A DNA stretch of 64,000 nt from Flavobacteriales bacterium (lineage in GTDB: Bacteria > Bacteroidota > Bacteroidia > CAIKAF01): positions 106,970-170,969 of the forward strand of contig JAKRSD010000015.1 of NCBI GenBank assembly GCA_022402535.1, given 5' to 3'. Shown here one piece after another: positions 76-10,281 of this stretch; position 1 is the first letter of the stretch, and every line of letters starts with the position of its first letter. Under the pieces are notes generated by a model. The model was not told where the DNA came from. It searched no databases and worked only from the letters and a program-made list of their open reading frames with translations. A program made the position numbers and the translations under genes.

Positions 76-2454
76 TTATTTTGCGGTATGATTAACCACC
101 AACACCTTCGATTCACGGATGTATTCAGAGGTAAGCGAAACGGTGTATAACCCATTCGCCAAATCTTCAACCGAAAAACGAAGCTGACCGCCCATAAAAC
201 GGGGAATCCATTCCTGACGCACCACACGACCCGTGGCATCAATCCAACGGATGTTTAAATCCGCCTCTCCGGATTGCTGCAACGAAATGAACATCTGCTC
301 ATCGGCCGGATTGGGAAACAAGGCCCACTGAACCGCTTCATTTTCCGAAACCGAAGCAAACGCATGTTGGAAACAAGGTCCTTCCACCTGTTTTAGGGTC
401 TGTTCGTAGTTCTCGTTTACGATGTCAATGATTTCCTCAATACAGATTACGCTATCCGTCAGTTCACTGTAATAAATACGGCATAGCGGCGTATTCACCA
501 GGTATTTGGGCAGTTTATGCTCCTGATACGCCAGCGCAATCACTTCGTTTCCGCCATTCAGGTATTGGGGCGTAACCGGAAAATCTAAAGGAGAAGCCAA
601 ATTTTGAACCCCGGATATTTTAATGCCTTTCATCTTGAATTGATAGCCCAATAATTTCCGTGTGGGATTCCGCACATAAATATCTACATAGCCGTCAGCC
701 AGATTCACGGGAGCCATGCTCAGCGTAACGGTATCGTTGGTGTTTAAAATACCCCTTGGGAATGTACACAAATCGTTGAACGGTTGCCCGTTGATGGCGC
801 AGTTATTAATCAGGGCTGCATCGTACACCGAAATACGAGAGTCATTATTCAGGTCTTTACAGGGCGACACTGCCACCGAAGCATTCAGAATTCCGGTTAC
901 ATAAAGCAATGCATCTGCCGTCTGTTGCAAGGTATCGGCATTCATATCTCCGTGAACAAGCACTCCACCGCAATCACCGTTACAGTCGGCCTGTACATTG
1001 CCGTAAGGTGTGCCGTTACAATCCACGATATCGGGGCAGGAGGGGAGCAGCTGGAAGGAAGGATTACCCTGAATATCGCGCATAAATTTTACACACGCTT
1101 TTGCATGATTATTTTGGAAACTGCTTTCCACGCGACCCAATGCATCGGGCGATTCATCCCAATTCACTTTCACCACCAGAATATAATTTCCCGTATCCAG
1201 GTCGGTCATATCCACCCACTGACACATCAATCCGGAGCTGTAAATATCGCCGCATCCGGCCGAAATTCCTTGATTTCCGCATCCGTATTGGAACGAACCG
1301 CCTCCGGAACATTCCAGATCCATCACACAAAACCCGTTTTTGTAGCCGATGGGCATCAGGTTTCCATCGTAATCATAGAGCAGATATTGGGCATAGCCTT
1401 CGTAGTGCCAGTGTCCGTGGCAGTTATCGAATGTGAACTGATTATTTCCGCTTCCGGGCGCTCCCAGATAATAATCATCATCGCCAATATTTTTAATGTG
1501 TGTGGTAAAGCGAAGAATTTCGCGCAGCCCATATCCGCCCACGCAACCTTCTGCAACCAGACAGCCGTCGTTGGAGTTGATAAAATCCATCTGCAGGCTG
1601 TTATGAATCACATTCTGCAGTACGGTCAGGTCGGGTGCATTCGGACAATTCGGATTTCCCGGATAATAACAGGTACCGTTTACCGAAGCCAGCGGATTGA
1701 AATTACAGGCCGTAGGATCCATACATCCCACCACGGGTCCCACATAATTCAGGGTCCAGTTGATATTGAACGGACAGCTGTTATTCACCGTGCCTAAGCG
1801 GATATAATACGTGGTTCCGCCGGCCAGAAAAGCCGTAACCACCGCCTGTTGACCGCAGCCTCCGTTGTTATCATCGTAGAAAATGGTGCCGATGTTGGAG
1901 TTGTCGTAAGTAAGTCCCACGCAGTGGTCATACACCCACACTTTGGTATCGCAGTTGTTGAGTCCGCAGGTGCTAATTTCATAAGTGCCCGTAGCCGCAG
2001 GGGTGAAGGCATACCAGTAATCGTTGGTTGAAGTGAAATGACTGCCGGGAGTAACCGGAACGGCCGTATTACACGAAAATCCCGGAGGACAGTTGAAATA
2101 GGTGCTTTCCGAAAAAGTATAATTTCCGCCGGTGGCAATCAGATTTCCGTTCAGGGTAACGGTGTAGGAGCCGTTACCGTAGCCGCAACAGATGCCGTCG
2201 CCATAGGAGTCAAAAATGGTAAATTTAAGGCAGACATTATCCGGTACACAGAGTGTCTGTCCCACGGCTCCGCCCGAAGCTATGAGTGCATTGGTCTGCA
2301 CATTGCGCAGTTCCCACGAAATTTCGTTGGGGAAATTATCCTGCACGATAACAATACTTACCTGCGATTGCCCCGAGGGGCATTGGCTCTGGGCGCGAAA
2401 CGACAAACCCGTGAGCAGCAAAAAGGCACATAGGGCGGGAAAAAGTTTAGGCAT
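76..2454 (-). CDS. Secreted lysyl oxidase-like protein with T9SS C-terminal sorting domain
   Basis: Signal peptide from MPKLFPALCAFLLL (start moved from 2496 to 2454); CHGHWHYEGYAQYLLYD...GYKNGFCVMDLEC resembles the lysyl oxidase copper-binding/cofactor region; C-term FPNPADEQM...GLYTVSL..KVLVV is a T9SS type A signal. Confidence 0.75.
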   Translation of the reverse strand: MPKLFPALCAFLLLTGLSFRAQSQCPSGQSQVSIVIVQDNFPNEISWELRNVQTNALIASGGAVGQTLCVPDNVCLKFTIFDSYGDGICCGYGNGSYTVTLNGNLIATGGNYTFSESTYFNCPPGFSCNTAVPVTPGSHFTSTNDYWYAFTPAATGTYEISTCGLNNCDTKVWVYDHCVGLTYDNSNIGTIFYDDNNGGCGQQAVVTAFLAGGTTYYIRLGTVNNSCPFNINWTLNYVGPVVGCMDPTACNFNPLASVNGTCYYPGNPNCPNAPDLTVLQNVIHNSLQMDFINSNDGCLVAEGCVGGYGLREILRFTTHIKNIGDDDYYLGAPGSGNNQFTFDNCHGHWHYEGYAQYLLYDYDGNLMPIGYKNGFCVMDLECSGGGSFQYGCGNQGISAGCGDIYSSGLMCQWVDMTDLDTGNYILVVKVNWDESPDALGRVESSFQNNHAKACVKFMRDIQGNPSFQLLPSCPDIVDCNGTPYGNVQADCNGDCGGVLVHGDMNADTLQQTADALLYVTGILNASVAVSPCKDLNNDSRISVYDAALINNCAINGQPFNDLCTFPRGILNTNDTVTLSMAPVNLADGYVDIYVRNPTRKLLGYQFKMKGIKISGVQNLASPLDFPVTPQYLNGGNEVIALAYQEHKLPKYLVNTPLCRIYYSELTDSVICIEEIIDIVNENYEQTLKQVEGPCFQHAFASVSENEAVQWALFPNPADEQMFISLQQSGEADLNIRWIDATGRVVRQEWIPRFMGGQLRFSVEDLANGLYTVSLTSEYIRESKVLVVNHTAK

Positions 2455-2975: not shown

Positions 2976-4683
<1,708 letters not shown>

Positions 4684-4745
4684 TAAATTCGTTGCCTGAT
4701 TGTATTGCCCCCAATCAGCTAAATACATTTTGAAATGTTCAAAAA

Positions 4746-4781: not shown

Positions 4782-5015
4782 ATGAAAACATTGTCACTCA
4801 AGCTCGACGAAGTACTTTTTAAAGAAACAGAGGAATTGCTTGAAAAAATAAAGAAACCCAGAAATCGGTATATTAACGAAGCATTACAATATTACAATCG
4901 TATTCAGAAAAAGAAAATGATTGAAAAAATGCTTGTGTCAGAGTCAAAACTCGTGAGTGAGGAGTCCTTAAAGGTACTGGGAGAATTTGAAAAACTGGAC
5001 GACTATGACAGCTAA
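4782..5015 (+). CDS. Ribbon-helix-helix-type antitoxin (MazE/ParD-like)
   Basis: 77 aa; MKTLSLKLDEVLFKETEELLEKIKKPRNRYINEALQYY; overlaps the MazF start. Confidence 0.75.
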   Translation: MKTLSLKLDEVLFKETEELLEKIKKPRNRYINEALQYYNRIQKKKMIEKMLVSESKLVSEESLKVLGEFEKLDDYDS

Positions 5016-5352
5016 AAAGTATGAGGTTTGGCTTGCAAATTTAGATCCGAGATTTGGAACAGAAACCGGCAAAACGAGACCTGTATTAGTGGTACAGACG
5101 GACATTTTAAATAAAGTACATCCGTCAACCCTGATTTGTCCGATAACGACTAATGTGCAACTTGAGAGTAAAATACTACGTGTTCATTTAAAAAAAGGGA
5201 CAGCCAAAGTTAAAGAAAACTGCGATGTAATGATAGATCAGTTAAGAGCCATTGACAACAAAAGATTAATAAAGAAAATTGGAGAGTTGCCTAAAGAACT
5301 CACTGAAAGAGTGCGGGAAAACCTTAAAATTGTTTTAGATTTAAACGATTAG
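5005..5352 (+). CDS. mazF: MazF/PemK-family endoribonuclease toxin
   Basis: YEVWLANLDPRFGTETGKTRPVLVVQTDILN...STLICPITTN; ATG at 5005 overlaps the antitoxin stop. Confidence 0.88.
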   Translation: MTAKKYEVWLANLDPRFGTETGKTRPVLVVQTDILNKVHPSTLICPITTNVQLESKILRVHLKKGTAKVKENCDVMIDQLRAIDNKRLIKKIGELPKELTERVRENLKIVLDLND

Positions 5353-5373
5353 GCTATATAGGCCCACTGCCCG

Positions 5374-5462
5374 GCGGAATGGACGGCATGATGTAATCAG
5401 ATGCCACAAACCAAAGTATAACACAAAGCCACTCCGTAAGGGGTGGCTTTTTTGTTGGAAAT
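5374..5462 (+). repeat. groEL 3'-end/terminator direct repeat, copy B (displaced groEL tail remnant)
   Basis: ccactgcccggcggaatggacggcatgatgtaa encodes [10 protein letters not shown]; followed by near-identical 3' UTR and terminator. Confidence 0.88.
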
Positions 5463-5628: not shown

Positions 5629-6858
5629 ATGATAGAAATAAAATCAGACTACTTTGATAAAGCAGTCAACAAATACTTAAATCATATCGAAAGTTTATGG
5701 ACTTCAATGCCTGTTGTATTAAAAACAATTGAAAGAACCAAGAACAGTGCTATTTTAGAACACAATGAATTTTTAAACAATAATTGTAATTTTATTGAAA
5801 GTGAAAATCACTTCTTAATTCCAATTGAACACATTAGAAAAAATACCCAATTAAGGAAATCTGTTGACAATTCGACAACTGCAATAAAAATAATTAAGAG
5901 AAATTTTTTAGTTTCAATCATTAGCCAGTTTGATACGTACGTTTCAGATTTAATAAAAGCAATCTTTGAAGTGCGACCAGAGATTATTCAGAACTCAGAA
6001 AAACAGCTCACTTTTTCGGAATTAAATAGATTCAAAAGTATTCAAGACGCTCAAGACTATATAATTGAAAAAGAAATTGAAACTGTTCTTAGAGAGAGTT
6101 ACACAGAACAATTTAAGTGGTTTGAAAATAAACTAAAAATTCAATTAAGAAAAGATCTTTCAATTTGGGAGACGTTCATAGAAATAACTCAAAGAAGAAA
6201 TTTGTTTGTACATAATGATGGAAAAATATCAACACAATATTTAAATGTTTGTAAAGAAAACAACGTACAATTGGATGATAAATTAAAAGTAGGGGACGAA
6301 CTTGATGTTGGATTAAAATACTTTGATAAATCTTTTAAATGTCTTTTTGAAATAGGAGTTAAATTAAATCAGGTAATAAGACGTAATCTATTGCCTGACG
6401 AATTAGAAAAGGCAGATAATTCATTTTTAAATATTTCATTTGAATTAATTCAGAATAGCCAATTGGACTTAGCTAAAACGCTTTATGATTTTTCTGATAA
6501 GTACATCAAGAAATATTCTAATGAAGATCTAAAGCTCAGGATTTTGCTTAATAGAGCACAAACATATAAATGGTTAGACAAAGAAAAAGAATGTACAGAA
6601 ATTATAAATTCAATTGATTGGACTGCAACTGGAGATTTGTTTAAGTTAGCAAGTAAAGTATTAATTGATGATTATGTAAGTGCTTGTGAAATAATGAAAA
6701 ATATTGGAGACAATGAAAAGGTTTTAAATAAGACATTTTATAAGGATTGGCCAATATTTAAAAAATTTCGGGTTACAGACGAATTTAAAAAAACATATTT
6801 AGAAATATTCAAAACAGAATTTGAAATAACAGAAGATAAAAATAACAACGCCCAATAG
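5629..6858 (+). CDS. HEPN-domain protein, putative RNase, with helical/TPR-like C-terminus
   Basis: ITQRRNLFVHNDGKISTQYL carries the RX4H HEPN motif (R190-H195). Confidence 0.65.
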   Translation: MIEIKSDYFDKAVNKYLNHIESLWTSMPVVLKTIERTKNSAILEHNEFLNNNCNFIESENHFLIPIEHIRKNTQLRKSVDNSTTAIKIIKRNFLVSIISQFDTYVSDLIKAIFEVRPEIIQNSEKQLTFSELNRFKSIQDAQDYIIEKEIETVLRESYTEQFKWFENKLKIQLRKDLSIWETFIEITQRRNLFVHNDGKISTQYLNVCKENNVQLDDKLKVGDELDVGLKYFDKSFKCLFEIGVKLNQVIRRNLLPDELEKADNSFLNISFELIQNSQLDLAKTLYDFSDKYIKKYSNEDLKLRILLNRAQTYKWLDKEKECTEIINSIDWTATGDLFKLASKVLIDDYVSACEIMKNIGDNEKVLNKTFYKDWPIFKKFRVTDEFKKTYLEIFKTEFEITEDKNNNAQ

Positions 6859-6991: not shown

Positions 6992-8389
6992 ATGAGTTCA
7001 AGTTTACTTCAACTACCTACACTACATTTATTAGAAAAGATCGGGGCAGGAAGTCACAAACCTGGCTCTGGAAGTGCTGCTTCTCTTAATGGTATTTTAT
7101 GCTGTAAATTATTGTTAACAGTAATTGAGCTGACACTTGATCCGAAGAGAGCTAAAAAGTATTCAAACTGTAAAGAAGAGTTTGAATCAATAAGAGATAT
7201 TATATTGAATGAAATTGGTCCTAGGCTTGAAGTTTTATTTGAGGAAGATTCAATACAATTCGATAAAGCCATAAAAATGAGAATTCAACGAGATGAAGAA
7301 ATAAACCAGAGATTAAAAAATTACCTTCAGAACGAATCATTAAAAGAACTTAAGTTATCAACTGAAATTCCTATAGAAATATCCCTTCTTTGCATTAGGC
7401 TTGGGAAATTTGCAGTAATAGTTTTCAAAAAAGGATTCAAGTCAGCTAGAGGTGATTCAGGTGTTGCACTAGGAAGTGCGTTATCTGGACTTTCTGGATG
7501 TATCTCTATCATAAGTTTGAATTTGCAATCATTCCCCAAAAGCCACTGGACTGATAATATTCATAACCAAAAAAATACCCTAAAGAAAGAATATCATGCG
7601 CTGAACAATCAAAATTCTAAGTTGCTTGAGGAATTAGACTCTGAAGCGATAAGAAAAAGTATTTTTCTGGCAGAATTTATTGACATAAGAAAGTCTTTTT
7701 ATGGAAAATCAAAAATATCGCATCATGAAATTGAAAATCTTGCAAGACGAATTCAAAATTCACTTTGGAAATATCGCGATTTGATTTGGTCAGATAATAC
7801 ACCTCAAAACGTATTTGACATTTTAAAACCTGAGAAAGTTATTGAAATTTTAAAATATGCATTTCACAAAGTTGAAACTTTAGGCTATAATGAACATAAC
7901 GAAGAAATTGCTGGTATAATAAATAATAGAGATTTTACAATTACTATATCAGGTATGTATAAAACTGATATAGTCAATTTCACTACTGCACATGAATTGG
8001 GACATGCTTTAATGCATGATAAAATAGAGTTACACAGAGATATACCGCTAGATGGAACTATTTCTGACAAAAACAGACCAATCGAGGAAATTCAGGCAGA
8101 CAAATTTGCTGCATTTTTTTTATTACCTTCTAAAATTGTAACACAACTTTTTCAAGAATTGTTTGGTGTAAGAAAATTAATAATTGATGAGCAAACGGCT
8201 CGTTTTCTTAATTTCAGTTCTATCGAAGATTTGCGGAAAAAAGTAAAAAATAAGCGTGACTTATCTAGGATTATTGCAAGTTGTGAATACTACAAATACA
8301 AGCATTTTATATCACTTTCAAAAATTTTTAATGTTTCAACAGAAGCCATGGCGATTAGATTGGAGGAATTGAACTTGATTGACTTGTGA
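6992..8389 (+). CDS. Cyclodeaminase/cyclohydrolase (FTCD_C)-like domain fused to ImmA/IrrE-family metallopeptidase
   Basis: N-term KPGSGSAASLNGILCCKLLLTVIELT...STEIPIEISLLCIRLGK...DSGVALGSALSGLSGCISIISLNL resembles FTCD_C; C-term TTAHELGHALMH...IEEIQADKFAAFFLLP is ImmA/IrrE-like (HELGH = 334-338). Confidence 0.75.
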   Translation: MSSSLLQLPTLHLLEKIGAGSHKPGSGSAASLNGILCCKLLLTVIELTLDPKRAKKYSNCKEEFESIRDIILNEIGPRLEVLFEEDSIQFDKAIKMRIQRDEEINQRLKNYLQNESLKELKLSTEIPIEISLLCIRLGKFAVIVFKKGFKSARGDSGVALGSALSGLSGCISIISLNLQSFPKSHWTDNIHNQKNTLKKEYHALNNQNSKLLEELDSEAIRKSIFLAEFIDIRKSFYGKSKISHHEIENLARRIQNSLWKYRDLIWSDNTPQNVFDILKPEKVIEILKYAFHKVETLGYNEHNEEIAGIINNRDFTITISGMYKTDIVNFTTAHELGHALMHDKIELHRDIPLDGTISDKNRPIEEIQADKFAAFFLLPSKIVTQLFQELFGVRKLIIDEQTARFLNFSSIEDLRKKVKNKRDLSRIIASCEYYKYKHFISLSKIFNVSTEAMAIRLEELNLIDL

Positions 8390-8491: not shown

Positions 8492-8675
8492 CTCAAGGTT
8501 GGTGTTTTCACCAACCTTTTTTTCTTTTTGTGCTATTTCTGCCCAGGTGATTGTTTCAGTAATTTTTTTCCAGCGTTTTTAACATACGGTACAGGTTGAG
8601 TTATTAAATAAATGTACTTATAGTGCTCCGATTCCTAAAGTTATCGGGACTCCACTTGGCCAACTGACAACCCGT
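8492..8675 (+). repeat. Long direct repeat R1, left copy (upstream of fic)
   Basis: ctcaaggttggtgttttcaccaacctt...tgctatttctgcccaggtgattgtttcag...tagtgctccgattcctaaagttatcgggactccactt; similar to 10097-10281. Confidence 0.85.
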
Positions 8676-8746
8676 TGGCGGTAATGTTTTTGCTGCACTT
8701 AGTATTAAACAAGCGACTCAGAAAGACGACCTAAAGCGGATTTGAC

Positions 8747-10020: not shown

Positions 10021-10281
10021 CTCAACGTTGTTGTTTTCACCCACCTTTTTTCTGTATGACTTTTTTCAGCCTAAGTGATTGTTTCAGCATTTTTTACTCA
10101 AGGTTGATGTTTCCACCCACCTTTTTTCTGTTTGTGCTATTTCTGCCCAGGTGATTGTTTCAGCATTTTTTACTAGCGTTTTTTAACATACGATAAAGGT
10201 TGATTTATAAAATAAATGTACATTTAGTGCTCCGATTTCTAAAGTTATCGGGACGCCACTTCGCCAAGCGCCAAACCGTTA
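10021..10281 (+). repeat. Long direct repeat R1, right copy with an extra ~76-bp tandem partial unit
   Basis: Full copy 10097-10281 plus partial copy 10021-10096 (ctcaacgttgttgttttcacccacctttttt...gtgattgtttcagcattttttact). Confidence 0.85.

Follow-up and report, generated by a model that had tools for sequence, protein, structure and literature searches.

In a Flavobacteriales bacterium, a single gene encodes an FTCD_C (cyclodeaminase-type) domain joined to an ImmA/IrrE protease domain (Peptidase_M78). The gene lies in the window, i.e. the whole stretch of 64,000 nucleotides of contig JAKRSD010000015.1 that was analysed. DNA-damage responses, integrative elements and CBASS immunity are all under the control of ImmA/IrrE proteases, for most of which, to our knowledge, no activating signal has been described. 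One that is fixed in a single chain to a remodelled fold of folate enzymes offers a concrete hypothesis for the input signal. The reading that we favour, tentatively and by analogy, is that the fusion could be a self-contained, ligand-controlled protease switch in which the FTCD_C domain acts as the sensor, in a phage- or stress-related response. The fold of a metabolic enzyme would then have been turned to a controlling role, in a gene that moves in the company of defence systems.

The fusion is encoded by an ORF of 465 aa with an ATG start. The original prediction, which placed FTCD_C and ImmA/IrrE domains in this one ORF, was correct for both domains according to Pfam and to fold models. 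FTCD_C (PF04961) matches residues 12–193 with 74.3 bits (E 1.3e-20) and Peptidase_M78 matches residues 329–391 with 41.3 bits (E 1.6e-10), both above the Pfam gathering cut-offs (24.5 and 22 bits, respectively). The two domains were matched in all four fusions scanned. The motifs quoted in the prediction are all present, i.e. HKPGSGSAASLNG (residues 22–34), STEIPIEIS (residues 123–131), DSGVALGSALSGLSGC (residues 155–170), HELGH and EIQADKFAAFFLLP (residues 366–379). The fusion is genuine, since its architecture recurs at 462–478 aa in six further genomes, including that of the isolate Larkinella humicola. A sequencing or assembly artefact or a frameshift is thus ruled out as its source by seven intact copies sharing the same architecture. 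The features of the gene, in window coordinates, are as follows.

6992 to 8389, plus strand: FTCD_C-ImmA/IrrE fusion gene (ORF, Pfam, AlphaFold2 model, homologues of near-constant length).
7025 to 7570, plus strand: FTCD_C-like all-helical domain, residues 12–193 (Pfam; Foldseek matches to 7vg4 and 1o5h).
7061 to 7075, plus strand: PGSGS motif, residues 24–28, the clade version of the canonical PGGGS/N, invariant in the seven fusions and in the stand-alone protein L038.
7247 to 7249, plus strand: Asp86, equivalent in position to Asp412 of rat FTCD and unchanged across the fusions and the canonical enzymes.
7442 to 7459, plus strand: SARGDS motif, residues 151–156, replacing the canonical N-[SA]-x-[ST]-D-x, with Asp155 in six of the seven fusions.
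7544 to 7843, plus strand: long connecting helices between the two domains, residues 185–284 (helices 185–236 and 244–260 in the model).
7976 to 8164, plus strand: ImmA/IrrE zinc-peptidase core, residues 329–391 (Pfam; profile matches to CapP and IrrE; Foldseek match to CapP).
7991 to 8005, plus strand: HELGH zinc-binding/catalytic motif, residues 334–338, invariant in eight of eight fusions, including the frameshifted L003.
8087 to 8089, plus strand: Glu366, predicted third zinc ligand, within ExxADxFA, invariant in eight of eight.
8165 to 8386, plus strand: C-terminal helical part, residues 392–465, ending in VSxEAMAIRLEELxLI (alignment, C-terminal model).
8495 to 8518, plus strand: predicted intrinsic terminator 3' of the fusion gene, with a 10-bp stem and a T-tail.

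The FTCD_C halves of the fusions form a clade of their own. In a tree of 43 FTCD_C domains, four fusions and the stand-alone L038 are split from 38 canonical domains, both stand-alone and bifunctional, with a support of 100/100; the branches that set the two groups apart are long, and the tree came with a warning about long-branch joins. L038, from genome G464, is a 245-aa FTCD_C protein of the same PGSGS clade (L038 1444–2181; L055 8064–8801), and the FTCD_C module therefore also occurs without a protease. The third Gly of PGGGS is a Gly in all 38 canonical domains, whereas it is a Ser in the seven fusions and L038 (G26S). SARG or AARG precedes the Asp in the fusions and L038, instead of the canonical N-[SA]-x-[ST], and the canonical Asn residues at positions 46 and 173 are replaced in the fusions by Glu or Asp and by Ile, respectively (N46E/D, N173I). 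Because of the changes at the third Gly, N46 and N173, the residue set of the canonical enzymes is incomplete in the fusion.

Other positions are kept. D86, P127, G148 and N177 are retained in the seven fusions and D155 in six of them, being a Glu in L033. Positions invariant in the seven fusions and L038 are H22, P24–S28, D86, T124, P127, G148, A152–G154 and N177. Asp86 aligns with Asp412 of rat FTCD, which we take to be a residue of the cyclodeaminase active site; the open-access literature searched yielded no description of the active site of FchA or FTCD at residue level. As some residues are kept and others replaced, the presumed pocket is partly retained and partly rebuilt. The clade with PGSGS and SARGDS signatures appears to be undescribed in the literature that could be searched.

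These changes bear on whether the protein is an ordinary enzyme of the folate/histidine pathway with an incidental protease domain. The FTCD_C profile and fold matches are in keeping with such a role. However, the score against the methenyl-THF cyclohydrolase (FchA) equivalog is 49.2 bits for a cut-off of 275, residues that are invariant or nearly so among the 38 canonical domains are altered, and the gene is patchily distributed, AT-rich and horizontally moved (see below). Furthermore, the host genome has its own separate, canonical bifunctional FTCD (208 bits). An ordinary metabolic role for the FTCD_C half is disfavoured because residues of the presumed pocket are altered and the host carries a canonical FTCD elsewhere; judged from sequence, it is unlikely. 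Together with the low equivalog score, these two points make the ordinary-enzyme explanation as a whole highly improbable, and we rejected it. The suggestion made at the outset that a cyclodeaminase fold is "reused" here gains support from the separate clade, from the G26S, N173I and N46E/D changes and from the canonical FTCD of the host.

The folds were examined with two AlphaFold2 models. The full-length model has a mean pLDDT of 90.8 and a pTM of 0.74; its input alignment comprised the seven fusions, pieces of others and canonical FTCD_C domains, and the canonical rows could bias the model toward the FTCD_C fold. The best PDB match of the N-terminal half in Foldseek is FchA (7vg4, E 2.5e-7, TM 0.90 by target length) and the second is TM1560 of Thermotoga maritima (1o5h, TM 0.87 by target length). 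A separate model of residues 239–465, built from fusion C-termini only, reaches a pLDDT of 89.2. It best matches CapP (7t5t, E 1.3e-4), then PprI (8slm, E 2.4e-3) and IrrE, with a moderate TM of 0.4–0.46 over whole chains of the solved ImmA/IrrE proteases. Profiles built from the family retrieve FchA (E 1.2e-17) and rat FTCD (1tt9, E 1e-7) with the N-terminal part, and CapP (E 1.2e-5), IrrE (E 3.4e-4) and PprI (E 6.2e-4) with the C-terminal part. In a plain sequence search, the N-terminal part came closest to FchA (7vg4) among solved structures, and the C-terminal part had weak matches to CapP and IrrE. As the high-confidence models match the expected PDB families, the earlier domain assignments hold at the fold level. 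For residues 1–200, the assignment to FTCD_C had been left to profile and structure searches, and both agree with it (E 1.3e-20; FchA fold, TM 0.90).

The full-length model is a compact helical bundle plus long helices, and canonical FTCD_C proteins are oligomeric. Both points would suit a pure scaffold, i.e. an FTCD_C domain that merely dimerises or oligomerises the protease and binds nothing. The pattern of conservation argues against it. Indeed, conservation is strongest in PGSGS, EEDS and SARGDS, at family signature positions, which are largely retained even at 36–42% overall identity. A sensor is favoured over a scaffold because these loop motifs are the most conserved part of the family. 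The connector (residues 185–284) is the least conserved part when the window and Larkinella fusions are compared. We regard the scaffold as unlikely, if credible.

In the protease half, H334, E335, H338 and E366 constitute the HExxH motif and the downstream Glu, and are invariant in all eight copies. The fusion is the sole Peptidase_M78 match in the host genome. In CapH-CapP and ImmR-ImmA, the repressor gene adjoins the protease gene. No XRE/HTH repressor was recognised among the neighbours of the window gene that were scanned, and no consistently adjacent XRE repressor was found across the fusion copies; single copies do have such a gene in their vicinity, namely an XRE gene for L090 and XRE-like ORFs for L057 and L033.

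The functional order of the two domains could also be reversed. The FTCD_C domain would then be the effector, an enzyme (acting for example on one-carbon folates) that harms the phage or the cell, and the ImmA/IrrE domain would sense ssDNA or damage and release it. Asp86 and Asp155 are retained, and two related proteases respond to ssDNA: PprI (IrrE) cleaves the repressor DdrO and is activated by ssDNA in a manner that depends on its GAF-like domain, and CapP cleaves CapH and is likewise activated by ssDNA (PMC10904395). An Mrr_cat-Peptidase_M78 gene, located at 7133–8440 of L089 (minus strand), also fits this proposal. It starts 56 bp downstream of the fusion on the same strand. Genes of this type are present in a further five of the Cytophagales genomes sampled, and in one case the gene is split in two frames. 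Such a neighbour in L089 suggests that the N-terminal partners of ImmA/IrrE domains can be effectors rather than sensors. On the other side, the fusions lack several polar residues that do not vary among canonical enzymes, Asp155 is a Glu in L033, and the invariance of the protease residues indicates that the ImmA/IrrE domain is not merely a dead regulatory fold. The effector proposal is the main rival of the sensor reading; we consider it improbable to the same degree as the pure scaffold.

Full-length fusions were found in a Bacteroidia MAG, Prado080 (L031, 80% identity to the window protein), in L. humicola (L032, 68%) and in Chitinophagaceae BSSC1 (L033, about 42%); another three, of 66–67% identity, come from genomes of Cytophagales (L089, L090 and L091). 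In addition, G054 (L003/L057) carries a frameshifted copy and G356 (L004/L056) a decayed N-terminal copy. The seven intact fusions and the frameshifted one correspond to a presence in about 0.3–1% of the Bacteroidota genomes sampled. The fusion occurs in 4 of 342 genomes from the order of Larkinella and in 1 of 299 from the order of G150. The class sample (395 genomes) yielded three full-length copies, including that of the window's own genome, and in the phylum sample (396 genomes) the fusion was found in the genome of the window and in G150, besides the frameshifted copy of G054. These low counts make the fusion rare and patchy in the Bacteroidota, to which all genome samples belong, other phyla being covered by a short-motif scan of contigs only. 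A search by tblastn of 50,697 phage and 72,556 plasmid records and two scans of viral contigs gave no match to the fusion, and a phage or plasmid gene was therefore rejected.

Both halves are maintained by strong purifying selection, as dN/dS in close pairs is low in both parts (about 0.06–0.07 for FTCD_C and 0.05–0.08 for the protease, these values being approximate since synonymous sites are near saturation). GroEL of the window genome is 80%, 73% and 79% identical to those of Prado080, Larkinella and BSSC1, respectively, for 80%, 68% and about 42% for the fusion. Identity of the fusion is thus at the GroEL level in one genome and far below it in another at a similar distance, which argues for horizontal transfer. 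The GC content of the gene is 31–36% in all copies, for 34–53% in the host loci. Sequence comparison therefore points to an AT-rich, horizontally mobile gene. Around the window locus, family relatives share synteny in groES-groEL only.

The fusion of the window is preceded on the same strand, 133 bp upstream, by a HEPN-like gene (5629–6858) with an RRNLFVH motif, which matches PADLOC RTasHEPN (E 9e-4) and whose product has no Pfam match. A MazF gene recognised by Pfam lies further upstream (4987–5352) and a DUF4172-Fic gene (PADLOC SoFic, E 8.7e-51) lies directly downstream. No CapH or CD-NTase gene was found among the window neighbours scanned. Two local duplications were also observed. The last codons of groEL and its terminator are present at 4593–4684 and 5371–5462, with a 58-nt core 98% identical, on either side of the MazF gene and of the preceding small ORF (4782–5015), as if a toxin-antitoxin cassette had been inserted at the 3' end of groEL and that end rebuilt. 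Direct repeats of about 160 bp (87–94%), at 8518–8676 and 10122–10280, flank the DUF4172-Fic gene, and their long matches within the genome are local only.

Defence-type genes also lie near other copies. PD-T4-9 A and C genes are located directly downstream of the fusion in L091 (genome G1004; 904–2172, minus strand), Hachiman HamB near the frameshifted fusion in L057, a type I methyltransferase in L033, a Ppl-like ATPase in L031, a Lamassu LmuB-like/ABC-3C gene next to the decayed copy in L056, and a SoFic-like gene near the stand-alone L038 in L055. In L057 (2108–6637), the HamB helicase gene is preceded by a gene encoding 227 aa and, further upstream, by a PIN_12 gene and its partner gene. 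Upstream of the stand-alone gene (L038/L055) are genes for a Fic protein, a WYL-like regulator and a MazF-like protein. The Larkinella copy has no recognised defence neighbour. In terms of raw proximity, defence-type neighbours of these kinds, including the MazF and SoFic-like genes of the window, are frequent. No conserved operon partner was found, and the HEPN-like, MazF and Fic genes around the window's fusion do not recur regularly beside other copies.

Such a context could also belong to a regulator that controls the excision or induction of its carrier element, as ImmA does for ICEBs1, with no direct role in defence. L057 adjoins genes of phage type, judged by eye to be ORFs similar to YqaJ-type exonucleases, XRE-like regulators are found near this copy and L090, and the C-terminal part of the fusion has matches in PHROG 2439 (transcriptional regulator) and PHROG 87 (metallo-protease). 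However, most copies are carried singly, and neither an integrase nor an XRE partner lies in their immediate neighbourhood. The phage and plasmid records gave no match either, which leaves this role with little probability.

Under the favoured sensor reading, the N-terminal FTCD_C domain would be an enzyme fold remodelled into a ligand-binding and probably dimerising sensor. The analogy is with PprI and CapP, whose proteolysis is switched on by ssDNA, in PprI with a GAF-like domain taking part (PMC10904395). Binding or loss of the ligand may be relayed through the long helical connector (residues 185–260) to the ImmA/IrrE protease, which would then cut a partner protein, most plausibly a regulator of repressor or antitoxin type. 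Its cleavage would release a stress or anti-phage response. The fusion would be carried by itself amid anti-phage and toxin-antitoxin genes, a company that makes a phage- or stress-related response the most likely one. Ligand sensing by the FTCD_C domain, the likeness of the ligand to a folate or some other small metabolite, the activity of the protease and the defensive output are all inferred. A bolder version, which we hold to be rather doubtful, would have the fusion act on its own as a switch for immunity or stress. Its repurposed cyclodeaminase fold would monitor the one-carbon (folate) pool, or a change that phage infection brings about in this pool, and the response would be proteolysis. 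The fusion would then belong to a wider set of proteins combining a variable module with ImmA/IrrE, including the Mrr nuclease fusions.

The original prediction had left room for an architecture already described, and no paper joining ImmA/IrrE and cyclodeaminase was found in the open-access literature searched. Each half nevertheless resembles known proteins. The fusion is similar to FchA and FTCD (PF04961; 7vg4, 1o5h, 1tt9) in its fold, in motif order, in Asp86 at the position of rat Asp412 and in P127, G148 and N177. It differs from them by PGSGS and SARGDS, where they have PGGGS/N and N-[SA]-x-[ST]-D-x, respectively, by the lack of N46 and N173 equivalents, by its protease and by its separate clade. 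CapP (CBASS-associated, 7t5t) and PprI/IrrE (3dte, 8slm), to which the C-terminal half is closest both in sequence and in fold, share with it the zinc-protease fold and the HExxH motif with a downstream Glu. Unlike these proteases, the fusion has no matched C-terminal GAF-like sensor and carries an N-terminal FTCD_C domain instead; unlike for CapP, no CapH or CBASS genes were recognised beside it in the window.

The single-chain XRE-ImmA/IrrE regulators (spr1629 family, NF052239; PADLOC RmrA) are, like the fusion, two-domain proteins with a C-terminal ImmA/IrrE core. The fusion has FTCD_C in place of their N-terminal HTH and scores 36 bits against NF052239, for a cut-off of 335. The Mrr_cat-Peptidase_M78 protein of L089 and its relatives also combine a variable N-terminal module and ImmA/IrrE in one chain, but their N-terminal module is restriction-endonuclease-like and the protease halves are just 21% identical. 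As a regulator, the FTCD_C-ImmA/IrrE fusion is thus a new variation on the ImmA/IrrE theme.
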